Assembly (NCBI RefSeq): GCF_003590775.1
Contig: NZ_QYUM01000002.1
Coordinates: 124,001 to 188,000, forward strand
Direction: 5' to 3'
From: Sphingomonas cavernae
Lineage (GTDB): Bacteria; Pseudomonadota; Alphaproteobacteria; Sphingomonadales; Sphingomonadaceae
Length of the DNA: 64,000 bases
Shown here: one piece after another, positions 30,714 through 40,603 of the stretch
Layout of the letters: each line of letters begins with the position of its first letter
Numbering within the stretch: the stretch's first letter is position 1
Translations under genes and position numbers: made by a program
Notes under the pieces: generated by a model
Told to the model about the DNA's origin: nothing
The model's database searches: none
Seen by the model: only the letters and a program-made list of their open reading frames with translations

Positions 30714-31365
30714 TTGTGCATAATTATGCAGATTATGGCGCATTGAGCATGAAAATCGAGTCTGGCCCGAGTGGCGATGTTCAGAATTCTGATCAACCGT
30801 GCTCCGGCATCGACCCGGCGCGTCTGGCTGCGGCTAAAGACCGCCTTGATCGCGCAGGCATTTCCGTGCGCAATTGGGCTAATCAGCACAATTTCCCAGA
30901 AGCCCTAGTTTACACGATCCTCCGCGGGCAGCGCCGCTGCAAGCGTGGCCTGTCGCACCGGATAGCGGTTGCCCTTGGCATCAAGGACAGTGACGCTGTC
31001 GCGCGGGCCGAACTTCGTGGTGGCGATAATGACTGATCTCCCCCTTCCCTTCGGGCGCACCATAGGGAAGCCCGCTCCGGTCGTCGCTTGCGATCGGAGC
31101 GGGATTTTGCAGCTCGGCGGCGATCGCTACACCGAAGCACTGGCGGTGGTCGAGGATCACCGGAAGCCATCCTGCAGCTTCGTGCAACGGCATTTGCGGA
31201 TCGGCTACAATGAGGCGGCTCGCTACGTCGAACGCATGGAGGCAGAGGGGCTTGTTTCGAGCCCGAACAGCGCGGGTGCTCGGCGTTGGATCGGAGATCG
31301 GCTTTCCTGCACGTGCGGCGAGGTCCACGACGCAAGCGATATCGAGGCCCGTGCCACGATCCTAT
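30714..31365 (+). repeat. Duplicated early unit, copy B (intact)
   Basis: 652 bp matching unit A with about four differences noted (for example GAT/AAT at the RDW/RNW codon and ATC/AGC at the SPNI/SPNS codon). Holds the complete first gene and the N-terminal half of the second. Confidence 0.93.
30749..31036 (+). CDS. BcepMu gp16-like DNA-binding protein (Cro/early regulator candidate)
   Basis: 95 residues from ATG 30749; a GTG at 30716 would add 11. A DNA-binding helical domain at about 36-80, [20 protein letters not shown] then [23 protein letters not shown], fits the BcepMu gp16 phage family. First gene of the early operon, facing repressor 2, so a Cro-like role is plausible. Overlaps the next gene by 8 bp. 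Confidence 0.78.
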
Positions 31366-31868
31366 GCGGCTGCGGCTCTGGGGTGGCGGTGCCAGAGCGC
31401 GAATGGCGACCAATGCACCAGATGCCGATCGGCGATCAGCGCAATTACGTTGCGCAAGTGCGCGGCGGAAAGGGCCAAACTGCCTTGGCCTACTGGACTG
31501 GTCGCTTCTGGGCATATGCGCCGATCAGCGAAGATCCGAAGCAATTGCCCTTTCATCCAATCGTGCATCGCGCCGCGATGTGGGCGCGATCGAGCAGCCC
31601 ACGGCCGCAGCTCGATTGGCAACCGCGAATTGGCGAGGAAGTCGAGCTGACCGCAGATTTCCTTGAGCGTTGGCCGGAATGGAGCGGGGCTCGTCTCTGG
31701 GTTGTCGGCCTCAACCATCAACGCGGCAAGCCGGGCATCAACGTGACGGTATCCGAGGAATGGCCGACCACGCCTTCTTCCTACGGATTCACCGATGATT
31801 TCTGGATAGACCGGCCCGGCAAGGCTGATGATCTGCAGCCGCTGACCAGCACGGATCGCGGCGCATGA
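31029..31868 (+). CDS. FtsK-gamma winged-helix domain protein, intact copy
   Basis: 279 residues. Residues about 30-85 read [42 protein letters not shown] and SAGARRW, the pattern of the FtsK C-terminal gamma domain that reads KOPS sequences and touches XerD. There is no FtsK motor. Next comes a possible zinc site, CTCGEVH and CGCGSG (about 96-117), and a C-terminal domain with [14 protein letters not shown] and [17 protein letters not shown], unrecognised. Ends ATGA into the CII-like gene. Confidence 0.78.
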
Positions 31869-36865: not shown

Positions 36866-37177
36866 ATGAGCATCGAACCGCCACGCACCCGGAATATCGG
36901 GCAAACGAAAACGATCGCCAAGCGCCTGCGGGCGAACTTGGAAGCGCTCGGATTCTTGATCAACCACGGTCGCTGCCTCGAAGCCGTCGCGGCGGGCTTC
37001 GGCTTCAACAGCTACGCCCATATGCGCGGCGACGCTGGCGCGGCAAAGCCTTGGACAATCCTGCGCGCCGCCGATCGTCTCATCGCCCTTGCTTCGTCGA
37101 TCGACCTGCCTTTCGCCGATGCGATCCGTGCGCTCGATGCCGCGATCAGCATCCCCGTGAAGGAGGCGGCAGAATGA
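36866..37177 (+). CDS. Hypothetical early protein
   Basis: 103 residues. Contains HGRCLEAVAAGFGFNSYAHM, a pattern (His, then LExVAxxxGF and an aromatic) seen at the start of several small uncharacterised bacterial proteins. Overlaps the next gene (ATGA). Function unknown. Confidence 0.6.
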   Translation: MSIEPPRTRNIGQTKTIAKRLRANLEALGFLINHGRCLEAVAAGFGFNSYAHMRGDAGAAKPWTILRAADRLIALASSIDLPFADAIRALDAAISIPVKEAAE

Positions 37178-37653
37178 GCACCGAACCCGAAGCCGCCCCC
37201 GATCCGCGCGTCGAAGCGATCGCCGGTCACATCACTGCCGGGATCTACTCGGCACCGCTCGCACAGGCGACGGCGCGCCAGCGCACCCTTGCGCTGAGCG
37301 TGGCAGACAAAATCGTCGCCGCCGAACAGCCGCCCAAGGCCGTTTGGATCGGGTACGACCCGTCGTCCGAAGCCGCAGTCGAAGGCATCCGGGAAGCGAT
37401 CAGGAACGCGAAGGGTCCGGGCAAGTTCCGCAACCTGTTCCTCCACGCCCCCGAACCGGCCTCGCCCGCGGCTGAGATCACGCGCTACCGCAACGGCCTG
37501 ATCGCGATCCAGAAAGCATGCGCCAATGGGAGGATCTGCGACGACGTCGCATGGTTCGACGATATCACCACGCTCCACGATTTTATCGAAGAGCTGCTTT
37601 CCCCGAGCGCGCCTGCTGTCGTCGCGGATCTGTTCGAAGGGCCTCGGGCGTGA
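37174..37653 (+). CDS. Early protein containing a portal-like segment
   Basis: 159 residues. About residues 70-95 (EGIREAIRNAKGPGKFRNLF then LHAPEP) closely match this phage's own portal protein (EGIKEALKNAKGPGNFRNMF then IHSPNG). The rest is not portal-like: N-terminus ITAGIYSAPLAQATARQRTL and C-terminus FDDITTLHDFIEELLS. It is in the early operon, coupled to both neighbours, the next starting with GTG. Role unknown; see findings. Confidence 0.65.
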   Translation: MSTEPEAAPDPRVEAIAGHITAGIYSAPLAQATARQRTLALSVADKIVAAEQPPKAVWIGYDPSSEAAVEGIREAIRNAKGPGKFRNLFLHAPEPASPAAEITRYRNGLIAIQKACANGRICDDVAWFDDITTLHDFIEELLSPSAPAVVADLFEGPRA

Positions 37654-38291
37654 TCGCTTACGCAGCACGCACGGGCACGCGGCGGAATTTAGCTGCACTT
37701 CGTCAAGCGGGGTGGCGGCTCATGGTTTCCGCCCGTGGCGTCCTTCGCACCGAAGGCTTTCCCTATGCCCTCGACAACGGCGCATGGACGTCATTCCAGC
37801 GGTCGGAACCGTTCGACGTCGAAGCGTTCGAACGCGCGGTGCGCCAGCTCGGGGCCGAGGCTGACTTCATCGTCCTGCCCGATATCGTGATGGGCGGACT
37901 CGCGAGCCTAGAATTCTCGAAGGCATGGCTGCGGCGCTTGCGGCGTCGCAAAGCCCTTCGCGATCGGACGTTCCTGATTGCGGTCCAAAACGGCATGGAG
38001 CCCGCTCATCTGCGGCGGCTTATCGGCCCGCGGGTCGGTATCTTCATCGGCGGTGATACCGCATGGAAAATTGCCACAATGGGACAATGGGCGAATCTCG
38101 CCCGTCGCCGTGGCGCTATTTGCCATGTCGGCCGCGTCAATACCGCTAAGCGCATCCGGCTTTGCGAAGCCGCAGGAGTGGACAGCTTCGACGGATCCAG
38201 CGCGAGCCGCTTTGCGGTCACGGTGGCGCCGCTCGATCTGGCCCGCCGCCAATCAGACCTTGAAGGATATCTGGCGAGGATCGCGGCATGA
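37650..38291 (+). CDS. TGT/DpdA-like protein (predicted base-exchange enzyme)
   Basis: 213 residues, GTG start overlapping the previous stop. Motifs follow tRNA-guanine transglycosylase order: LDNGAW (D42), LPDIVMGG (77-83), IAVQNGM (111-116), IFIGGD (131-136), CHVGRVNTAKRI (158-169) and GVDSFDGSSASRF (176-188, like FD-PTR in TGT). TGT relatives in phages (DpdA) put 7-deazaguanine bases into DNA. It is much shorter than TGT (about 370) and the zinc site is not evident. Next to a DNA methyltransferase. Family call is inference. Confidence 0.6.
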   Translation: MIAYAARTGTRRNLAALRQAGWRLMVSARGVLRTEGFPYALDNGAWTSFQRSEPFDVEAFERAVRQLGAEADFIVLPDIVMGGLASLEFSKAWLRRLRRRKALRDRTFLIAVQNGMEPAHLRRLIGPRVGIFIGGDTAWKIATMGQWANLARRRGAICHVGRVNTAKRIRLCEAAGVDSFDGSSASRFAVTVAPLDLARRQSDLEGYLARIAA

Positions 38292-38971
38292 TCGCAACCG
38301 TTCAGATCGGCCCGCACCGCCTCTTTCTCGGCGACGCTTACCAGATCCGCGCCGCGCTGGGCTGGCAGGATGCCGACGTGCTCGACCCGCCTTTCAAATA
38401 CAAGGCGGTCGGCGCGGGCAATATGCGCAAGAAGCGGCAGGCAACCCGGCTCGTGATCGAGCAGGACATGCATAAGGGGTTCGATATCCGCATCATCAAT
38501 CCGCTGCTCTGCGGCTCGGTGGTGGTGTTCTGCCACAATGATCAGATCCCCGAGGTATCGGCGCATCTGAAAGGCAGTTTTCAGCGCTTCGTGATGGCGG
38601 GATGGCGCAAGTCCAACCCCATGCCCGTCTGCAACAAGCACTACCTTTACGACACCGAATTCTATTTTCACGCCTGGACAAAGGGGCACCATCCCCGCGG
38701 CGAATATGCGGACAAGCGCCGATTCGTCGAGGCGCCCGTCGCGCCCTCCAAGCGGTTCAACCATGGCACGGTCAAACCCGATCGCGTGATGGACAAGATC
38801 CTGACCAACGTCGCAGGCGCCACGATCTGCGATCCCTTCATGGGAACCGGCAGCACGGGCGTCGCCGCCATCAAGGCAGGCCGCATCTTCACCGGGATCG
38901 AGCACAACGCCGAGCACTTCGAAACGGCTGTCAGCCGCATCCGCGAAGCCTTTGAAAGACAAGCAGCATGA
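38288..38971 (+). CDS. DNA methyltransferase (N6-adenine/N4-cytosine type)
   Basis: 227 residues. DPPF (33-36) is motif IV and comes before the SAM motif DPFMGTGSTG (182-191), i.e. the beta-class order. Tail KAGRIFTGIEHNAEHFETA is usual for this class. The target site cannot be read. No restriction enzyme gene is near, so it is an orphan protective or regulatory enzyme. Overlaps both neighbours (ATGA). Confidence 0.88.
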   Translation: MIATVQIGPHRLFLGDAYQIRAALGWQDADVLDPPFKYKAVGAGNMRKKRQATRLVIEQDMHKGFDIRIINPLLCGSVVVFCHNDQIPEVSAHLKGSFQRFVMAGWRKSNPMPVCNKHYLYDTEFYFHAWTKGHHPRGEYADKRRFVEAPVAPSKRFNHGTVKPDRVMDKILTNVAGATICDPFMGTGSTGVAAIKAGRIFTGIEHNAEHFETAVSRIREAFERQAA

Positions 38972-39324
38972 GGAACATGATCAAGGTGGGCGACGTCCTG
39001 CCGATGCCCGCGGGGTATGACCCCGAAGCCCTGCGCTACGCCATCGCCCGCCGTGGCCTCACCGAGCGCACCGCGCGCAGCGCATCCACCAACCAGCGCG
39101 CCAAAACCGCCCGCCTGATCATGGCAGCGATCGCAGATCAGCACAGACGCGCCACCGATCCGATCGAGCAGGCGGCCGCCTTCCTGCGCCGCCGCGGCTT
39201 CGTCGTCTTCAATCAGGGCCAGATCGATAGCGCCAGCGGCACCGGCTATGTCGTCGGCCGCAAGCGCTTCGACACCTCGGCCGAGCTGCTCGACTATGCC
39301 CGCGCGCGAGGGTGGCAGGGATGA
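38968..39324 (+). CDS. Hypothetical early protein
   Basis: 118 residues. N-terminus basic (RRGLTERTARSASTNQRAKT), C-terminus a small alpha/beta domain (AAAFLRRRGFVVFNQGQ, KRFDTSAELLDYARARGW). Overlaps the excisionase gene by ATGA. No family recognised. Confidence 0.6.
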   Translation: MRNMIKVGDVLPMPAGYDPEALRYAIARRGLTERTARSASTNQRAKTARLIMAAIADQHRRATDPIEQAAAFLRRRGFVVFNQGQIDSASGTGYVVGRKRFDTSAELLDYARARGWQG

Positions 39325-39614
39325 GCTGGGCACAAAGCGCGAATTCGCTGTTCACCGAAGTTGAGGCAGCAAGGTGGTTGAAGATCTCGCCTCGAACGCT
39401 GCGCAAGGAACGGCAGGACGGAAAGATCCACTATGTCTTGATCCGCAGCGCGGTCCGCTACAGTTTCGACGATCTAACCCGATACATTGAGAATGCACGC
39501 ACATGCCAATCTACCAGCGAGAAGGCTCCCCCTATTGGTGGTACACATTCTCGATCGACGGTAAGCGATTTCGAGGAAGTACGGGCGAGACGAAGGAGCG
39601 CGCGGCGCTCTTAG
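39321..39614 (+). CDS. xis: Excisionase-like HTH protein
   Basis: 97 residues. TEVEAARWLKISPRTLRKER then DGKIHYVLIRSAVRY and a final DDLTRYIE is the MerR-like winged-helix pattern of phage excisionases. It directs the integrase to excise. The last 112 bp overlap the integrase gene in another frame, so xis and int are tightly linked in expression. Confidence 0.82.
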   Translation: MSWAQSANSLFTEVEAARWLKISPRTLRKERQDGKIHYVLIRSAVRYSFDDLTRYIENARTCQSTSEKAPPIGGTHSRSTVSDFEEVRARRRSARRS

Positions 39615-40603
39615 CCGAAGCGGAAAAATATCAGCTTGAGCGCGGTCGCCCAACCGCCGATCAGGCATGGCGATTGCGAGAGGTACTCGGCACGTTCTGG
39701 ACTGAACATGCACAGCACCTTTCAAGCGCCAGCGACATTTTCTTTCACTTCGAAATGCTCTCACAATTTCTAGGCCCGAGCCTGCCTATTTCAGACGTGA
39801 CGAACGCTAAGCTGCTCGACTATCGCGCGGCTCGCCGCGGCGGCACGATCGAGGCCACCGAGGAATTGGTGCGGGATCGGCCGAAGGCGTGGCGTCATCG
39901 CATGATCACCAAGACCGGCTTTATCAGGCCGGTTGCACCGCAGACGGTGAACCGCGATTTCGCCCATATTCAAGCCGCAATGAATTGGGCTCGCGACGTG
40001 CACGGAAAGCCGATGCCGACGATCGCCTGGACGCGGCTAAAGTCCAAGGAAGCGCCGTTTCGTGTCCGCTTTGCAGCAGCCACTGAATTCGAGCAGCTCA
40101 TGAGCGGTGCGCATCCAGCGATGCGGACGATCATATTATGCGCCGTCACGACTGGGCTTCGCCGCGCAAATATCCTCGGCATGCAATGGCATCAGGTCGA
40201 CCTGTCGAGCTGCACGATCACGTTGCCACGCGTGAAGGGCGACAAGCCGCACAGCGTGTCGATCGCGCCCGTGCTGCGGGCAGCTCTGGCGCGGACGCCG
40301 CCCAACCTGCGCAAAGGGCCAGTATTCGACGCGACGAATTACAAGCGGCGATGGCAGGGCGCCGTCAAATCGGCCGACCTGCGCGATTTCCGGTTTCACG
40401 ATTTGCGCCACACCTTCGCGAGCTGGGCTCGGCAAAATGGCGCGGATCTCGCCGACATATGTGAGGCCCTAGATCACAGCAGCGTGGCGGTTACGCAGCG
40501 CTACGCCCACATCCAACCCGAGACGACGACAACTGCCTTTGACCGGGTTGCAGATCTGCTCGCGTCACAATCACGGTCACAATCGCGGAAAAAGCGGGCC
40601 TGA
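39503..40603 (+). CDS. int: Phage tyrosine integrase
   Basis: 366 residues. N-terminal arm-binding region (YWWYTFSIDGKRFRGSTGE), a core-binding domain (about 55-170) and the catalytic set R220 (GLRRANIL), K248 (KGDKPH), H299 and R302 (HDLRH), H325 (LDHSS) and Y334 (TQRYAHI). It ends 39 bp before the right attachment core, the standard int-att arrangement. Start inside the excisionase gene. Confidence 0.95.
   Translation: MPIYQREGSPYWWYTFSIDGKRFRGSTGETKERAALLAEAEKYQLERGRPTADQAWRLREVLGTFWTEHAQHLSSASDIFFHFEMLSQFLGPSLPISDVTNAKLLDYRAARRGGTIEATEELVRDRPKAWRHRMITKTGFIRPVAPQTVNRDFAHIQAAMNWARDVHGKPMPTIAWTRLKSKEAPFRVRFAAATEFEQLMSGAHPAMRTIILCAVTTGLRRANILGMQWHQVDLSSCTITLPRVKGDKPHSVSIAPVLRAALARTPPNLRKGPVFDATNYKRRWQGAVKSADLRDFRFHDLRHTFASWARQNGADLADICEALDHSSVAVTQRYAHIQPETTTTAFDRVADLLASQSRSQSRKKRA

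Follow-up and report, generated by a model that had tools for sequence, protein, structure and literature searches.

A P2-like prophage of Sphingomonas cavernae includes a gene for a small protein of the TGT superfamily, here called the short TGT, and we consider it probable (approximately 0.6) that this protein is a minimal DpdA-like enzyme that inserts a host-derived 7-deazaguanine into phage DNA. Its activity, its substrate and its DNA target are our inference from what was computed, namely the fold, the register of the motifs, their conservation, the linkage of the family to precursor genes and the precursor genes of the host. Taken separately, a 7-deazaguanine is very probably the substrate, DNA is likely to be the target, and a role in anti-restriction is favoured, somewhat less firmly than either. 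As genes of this family repeatedly adjoin genes for 7-deazaguanine synthesis or import, the short TGT probably disguises phage DNA.

The short TGT gene lies near the right end of the prophage in the window, which is the whole 64,000 nucleotide stretch of S. cavernae DNA that was analysed. The features discussed here, with motif coordinates computed from residue numbers and prophage boundaries computed from IMG/VR contig coordinates, are:

2676–40603, forward strand: P2-like prophage, given as the extent of the matching IMG/VR contig and not from attachment sites
37174–37653, forward strand: upstream ORF, no family match, approximately 159 aa from its ATG, stop overlapping the short TGT start
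37650–38291, forward strand: short DpdA-like member of the TGT superfamily (phrog_15826), 213 aa, starting at GTG
37770–37787, forward strand: LDNGAW codons, residues 41–46; D42 is the counterpart of D72 in phage 9g DpdA (LDSGAF)
37875–37889, forward strand: LPDIV codons, residues 76–80; D78 is invariant across the family
37977–37997, forward strand: IAVQNGM codons, residues 110–116; the invariant Q113 falls on the tRNA TGT motif of QGG type
38040–38057, forward strand: IFIGGD codons, residues 131–136; G134-G135 is the predicted base-binding loop
38121–38144, forward strand: CHVGRVNT codons, residues 158–165; H159 aligns with H196 of 9g DpdA
38187–38210, forward strand: FDGSSASR codons, residues 180–187; D181 is the predicted nucleophile, aligned with the Asp of TGT FDCV
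38288–38971, forward strand: orphan beta-class N6/N4 DNA methyltransferase, 227 aa, Pfam N6_N4_Mtase 3e-13
38968–39324, forward strand: downstream ORF, no family match, 118 aa, overlapping the methyltransferase stop
39312–39614, forward strand: excisionase-like helix-turn-helix protein
39503–40603, forward strand: tyrosine integrase, right end of the P2-like prophage

The prophage has a P2-type gene set that includes capsid, scaffold, tail tube, sheath, baseplate and Ogr/Delta proteins. A further prophage protein (30969–31868) contains an FtsK gamma domain, which in FtsK reads the DNA sequence. As the first-pass annotation had stated, a D12-class (Dam-type) methyltransferase is found among the prophage ORFs, and the families of the preQ0 synthesis proteins QueC, PTPS and FolE are all absent from them.

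The 213 residues of the short TGT are encoded by 37650–38288, and its stop codon ends at 38291. The same annotation had described a protein of little over half the usual size that keeps the TGT motif order, and this description was borne out. LDNGAW, LPDIV, IAVQNGM, IFIGGD, CHVGRVNT and FDGSSASR occur in that order, and the protein is shorter than both the host tRNA TGT (417 aa as an ORF) and phage 9g DpdA (317 aa). Its cysteines number two, at positions C158 and C172, and the zinc-binding C-terminal subdomain of tRNA TGT is absent. No meaningful match was found in Pfam, where PF01702 was not matched, NCBIfam or PADLOC, and searches of the solved structures in the PDB with the single sequence or with a profile returned chance matches only. 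A ketosynthase match in NCBIfam (E 0.0016) was rejected as spurious, as its score of 17.5 bits lay far below the cut-off of 445. The sole PHROG match was to phrog_15826 (7e-48), which is annotated as being of unknown function.

An AlphaFold2 model built from 100 sequences (pLDDT 96.5, pTM 0.92) indicates that the short TGT almost certainly has a TGT fold. When the model was compared with known structures, a check that had been proposed for the DpdA assignment, the best PDB matches in Foldseek were all TGT (E 3e-6, probability 1.0), and the viral matches included annotated phage queuine transglycosylases and the Vibrio phage nt-1 protein R9TGF0. With VIA-align, TGT reached Z scores of approximately 16 over 207–209 residues, but pyruvate-kinase barrels scored equally high (Z 16). 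The fold alone therefore does not settle the function, and the residue-level evidence matters. When profiles of the short family and of phage DpdA1 were aligned (E 2e-6, probability 89%), D42, H159 and D181 paired with D72, H196 and D215 in 9g DpdA numbering. Against tRNA TGT the profile signal is weak (E 7e-4, probability 27%); there, D181 falls on the nucleophile aspartate of the FDC motif, and the QNG and GG motifs fall on QGG and GG.

The family is large, and the motif pattern is therefore no chance likeness. At least 500 relatives were found in IMG/VR, bacterial and archaeal genomes contributed 57 loci, and 21 phage records matched. Matches were also found in 172 plasmid records, 146 of them from Pseudomonas. 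The plasmid members (regions L184–L189, L187 being pJB37) include some on plasmids of 400–500 kb and carry the annotation 'hypothetical protein'; in these six regions the records name no Que or Vut gene in their vicinity. Two Gemmataceae members (L112:5992-6966 and L115:5884-6993) have an ISL3-type zinc ribbon fused to the C-terminus, possibly a DNA-binding extension, and the fusion in L115 also has a weak helix-turn-helix match.

Among 124 sequences that share less than 85% identity, D78, Q113, G135, K140, H159, R168 and D181 are invariant, and D42, N43, P77, F132, G134, R162, N164 and G182 are nearly so. Loss of the catalytic aspartates had been named as evidence against a TGT, but approximately 120 relatives keep the Asp, Gln and Gly-Gly of the catalytic site. 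The gene is within an integrated prophage and might thus be a decayed or unexpressed remnant that has no function. However, this is scarcely credible, as the frame is intact and overlaps tightly with its neighbours, the near-invariant residues are all kept, and the protein is 76% identical to its homologue in Sphingomonas laterariae, the nearest genomic relative.

Comparison of the short TGT with characterised enzymes revealed that its assignment as a TGT/DpdA holds. The fold, the motif register and the link to 7-deazaguanines agree with it, but the short family forms a clade separate from the characterised DpdA and DpdA2 proteins, and we therefore prefer the term DpdA-like to DpdA. With phage DpdA1 (the 9g, CAjan and Rosebush type; phrog_887 and phrog_7068) the family shares the TGT fold, the D-(S/N)-G-A motif, the GG loop, the conserved His, the S-x-D nucleophile motif and linkage to preQ0 genes. 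It is nonetheless outside the DpdA1 sequence family: the short TGT is approximately 100 residues shorter than 9g DpdA, belongs to phrog_15826 and not to phrog_887 or phrog_7068, is similar at the profile level only, and is not matched by the PADLOC DpdA models. PADLOC also returned no match to the other proteins of the Dpd island (DpdB and others) for the short TGT or its flanking genes. With bacterial Tgt (PF01702) it shares the barrel fold and the succession of QGG-like, GG and FD(C/G) motifs, but it is half as long, lacks the zinc subdomain and does not match PF01702. To DpdA2, known from Vibrio phage nt-1, the likeness is the distant fold match to the nt-1 protein R9TGF0 noted above; the His conserved at position 196 is missing from DpdA2 (PMC6884629), and the short family keeps H159 there. 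Named relatives include actinobacteriophage proteins annotated as 'DpdA-like tRNA-guanine transglycosylase' (GreaseLightnin gp55, Sonali gp81 and Aoka gp40). They belong to the same family by the phrog_15826 profile and are of the same length, but are only 27–31% identical to the window protein, and their function is named by annotation.

In Arthrobacter phage Sonali and Vibrio phage R29Z, members of the short family coexist with a canonical DpdA and preQ0 genes, and in R29Z the short TGT lies beside the DNA polymerase. A homologue split over two overlapping ORFs is found beside the canonical dPreQ0 cluster in Escherichia phages phiG7 (L160:9938-10530) and SHIN8, and the split is a frameshift, a pseudogene or a sequencing error. 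The coexistence with canonical DpdA in Sonali and R29Z, and in split form in phiG7, suggests that the short family acts on DNA in a role of its own, separate from that of DpdA1.

The genes adjacent to family members link the short TGT to 7-deazaguanine supply. The neighbour genes of 125 non-redundant members were clustered, and adjacency was tested against the adjacent share of all neighbour slots, 14.5%. QueC was adjacent to the short TGT in 14 of 17 occurrences (P 8e-10), a Vut/YhhQ-type precursor transporter in 15 of 16 (P 4e-12) and QueD in 8 of 9 (P 1.5e-6), where the P values treat loci as independent. On the tree of the family, QueC, Vut and QueD require at least 9, 7 and 6 changes, respectively, so this linkage is not one inherited arrangement. 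A Pfam scan of the direct neighbours found 14 Vut_1, 14 QueC, 8 PTPS, 2 QueF and one GTP cyclohydrolase I (FolE), and a Vut/YhhQ-like gene is directly upstream of GreaseLightnin gp55. YhhQ is cited in PMC6884629 as a preQ0 transporter. No enrichment in adjacent positions was seen for helicases, integrases or PAPS reductases among the 125 loci. PAPS-reductase-family (PP-loop) genes do occur next to or near the short TGT in some plasmids and phages (L185:4665-5807, L186:6735-8540, L012:5643-6560 and L016:9463-10503), and a PAPS reductase was rejected as a family partner for lack of adjacent enrichment in the IMG/VR and genome set.

This linkage does not extend to every member. When members were clustered, 83 of 123 had no precursor gene nearby, and QueC was above the cut-off in 20 of the 44 genomes carrying members. 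For the other 24 the precursor source is not always evident, and part of the family must either rely on import or carry out another function. Vut transporters were expected to be concentrated in hosts that lack QueC, but a hand count showed a weak trend only (9 of 13 loci with Vut were in such hosts, compared with 15 of 32 without). In an actinomycete sub-branch (L128, L140–L146 and related loci, from Nonomuraea, Nocardia and their relatives) no precursor gene is nearby and the hosts mostly lack QueC; these members may use another substrate. More broadly, the short TGT could be a diverged TGT-fold enzyme that exchanges guanine for a different base or removes a modified base, with the 7-deazaguanine linkage applying to some branches only. 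The many members without precursor genes, the hosts without QueC, the invariant or near-invariant K140, R162, N164 and R168, which are specific to the family, and the coexistence with canonical DpdA all fit such a reaction. It is unlikely, however, as the catalytic positions of the base-exchanging TGT and DpdA enzymes are kept, and the precursor linkage arose many times on the tree, including close to the clade of the window protein.

The genomic link to 7-deazaguanine supply is thus seen at the family level; for this prophage, which has no precursor gene, there are host genes only. The suggestion that host preQ0 would be used is plausible, because the host has FolE, QueC, QueF, a tRNA TGT, a QueE-like match (below the cut-off) that adjoins QueC, and two transporters of the Vut Pfam family, named queuosine precursor transporter by NCBIfam. 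However, QueD (PF01242) was not detected in the host genome. The S. laterariae genome likewise has QueC and no match to PF01242, and Caulobacter was positive among the controls of the same search. The lineage may therefore use another enzyme or rely on import.

The TGT fold and the precursor linkage do not separate an RNA target from a DNA target, and a TGT-fold enzyme could use 7-deazaguanines on phage or host tRNA, keeping translation efficient during infection. This we regard as less likely still, as the tRNA-binding zinc subdomain is missing from the 213 aa protein with its two cysteines, the Pfam TGT family is unmatched, and the host already has a tRNA TGT. In R29Z and phiG7, moreover, the gene adjoins a DNA polymerase and a canonical DpdA.

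The short TGT had also been proposed to form a compact functional pair with the methyltransferase encoded downstream. Several details of that proposal are correct. The GTG start of the short TGT overlaps the stop of the upstream ORF (GTGA, 37650–37653), and its own stop overlaps the methyltransferase ATG (ATGA, 38288–38291), consistent with the translational coupling claimed. The methyltransferase is of the beta class, with DPPF preceding DPFMGTGST, has both the catalytic and the SAM motif of an N6/N4 DNA methyltransferase, and the closest solved structures are annotated as DpnA (E 6e-15). The ORFs that flank it have no family match in Pfam or PADLOC, and one of them may encode an uncharacterised nuclease as the cognate restriction enzyme. 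Functional pairing did not find support across the family, where methyltransferases are adjacent no more often than expected by chance (N6/N4, 3 of 25, P 0.72; C5, 4 of 20, P 0.33; 125 non-redundant loci). An obligate two-enzyme modification pair would explain the ATGA overlap, the 56%-identical methyltransferase downstream of the S. laterariae homologue and the methyltransferases that recur near other members of the small clade to which the window protein belongs. It is nevertheless very improbable, as an adjacent methyltransferase is missing from nearly all family members. Because S. laterariae keeps a methyltransferase nearby and others recur in this clade, the association may be lineage-local. 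Given the adjacency enrichment and the identity of the transporter, 7-deazaguanine supply, not methylation, is indicated as the partner of the family.

In the preferred reading, that of a DpdA-like enzyme acting on phage DNA, D181 would attack the glycosidic carbon of deoxyguanosine, by analogy with TGT. Guanine would be expelled and a 7-deazaguanine (preQ0 or a derivative), predicted to be bound by D42, D78, Q113 and G134-G135, would be accepted in its place. The precursor would have to come from a host pathway or from import, because the prophage makes none itself. The modified guanines would then protect the DNA against restriction, and neither the orphan methyltransferase nor the D12 enzyme would have a part in this protection.

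Phages that carry only dpdA and have dADG in their DNA are already known, namely 7-11 (PMC6884629) and MED16 (PMC8306585), and phage Orion has a lone dpdA and no modification (PMC6884629). Some relatives of the short TGT had been called DpdA-like by actinobacteriophage annotators, and no paper on the short family was found among the open-access papers searched. New here are the breadth and the separate identity of the family, its statistical association with genes for precursor supply and import, and the occurrence of members in Pseudomonas and other plasmids.

A more speculative extension, which we put forward tentatively, is that phages and plasmids use the family for an 'import and insert' form of base exchange. 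An enzyme of approximately 200 residues, which in many actinobacterial members comes with its own YhhQ-type importer, could allow mobile DNA to be modified with 7-deazaguanine even in hosts unable to make preQ0. The target motif or base would differ from that of canonical DpdA, and large Pseudomonas plasmids would also be marked. If so, the Pseudomonas plasmid members would represent DNA modification hidden by the annotation 'hypothetical protein'. As it stands, phrog_15826, with hundreds of members and no name, becomes a testable candidate DNA-modification enzyme. The finding has a bearing on the role of a DpdA that a phage carries alone, for which the importer linkage offers a concrete answer that could be tried in Mycobacterium smegmatis phages. 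It also suggests that gene-cluster searches understate how common 7-deazaguanine is in the DNA of temperate phages and plasmids.
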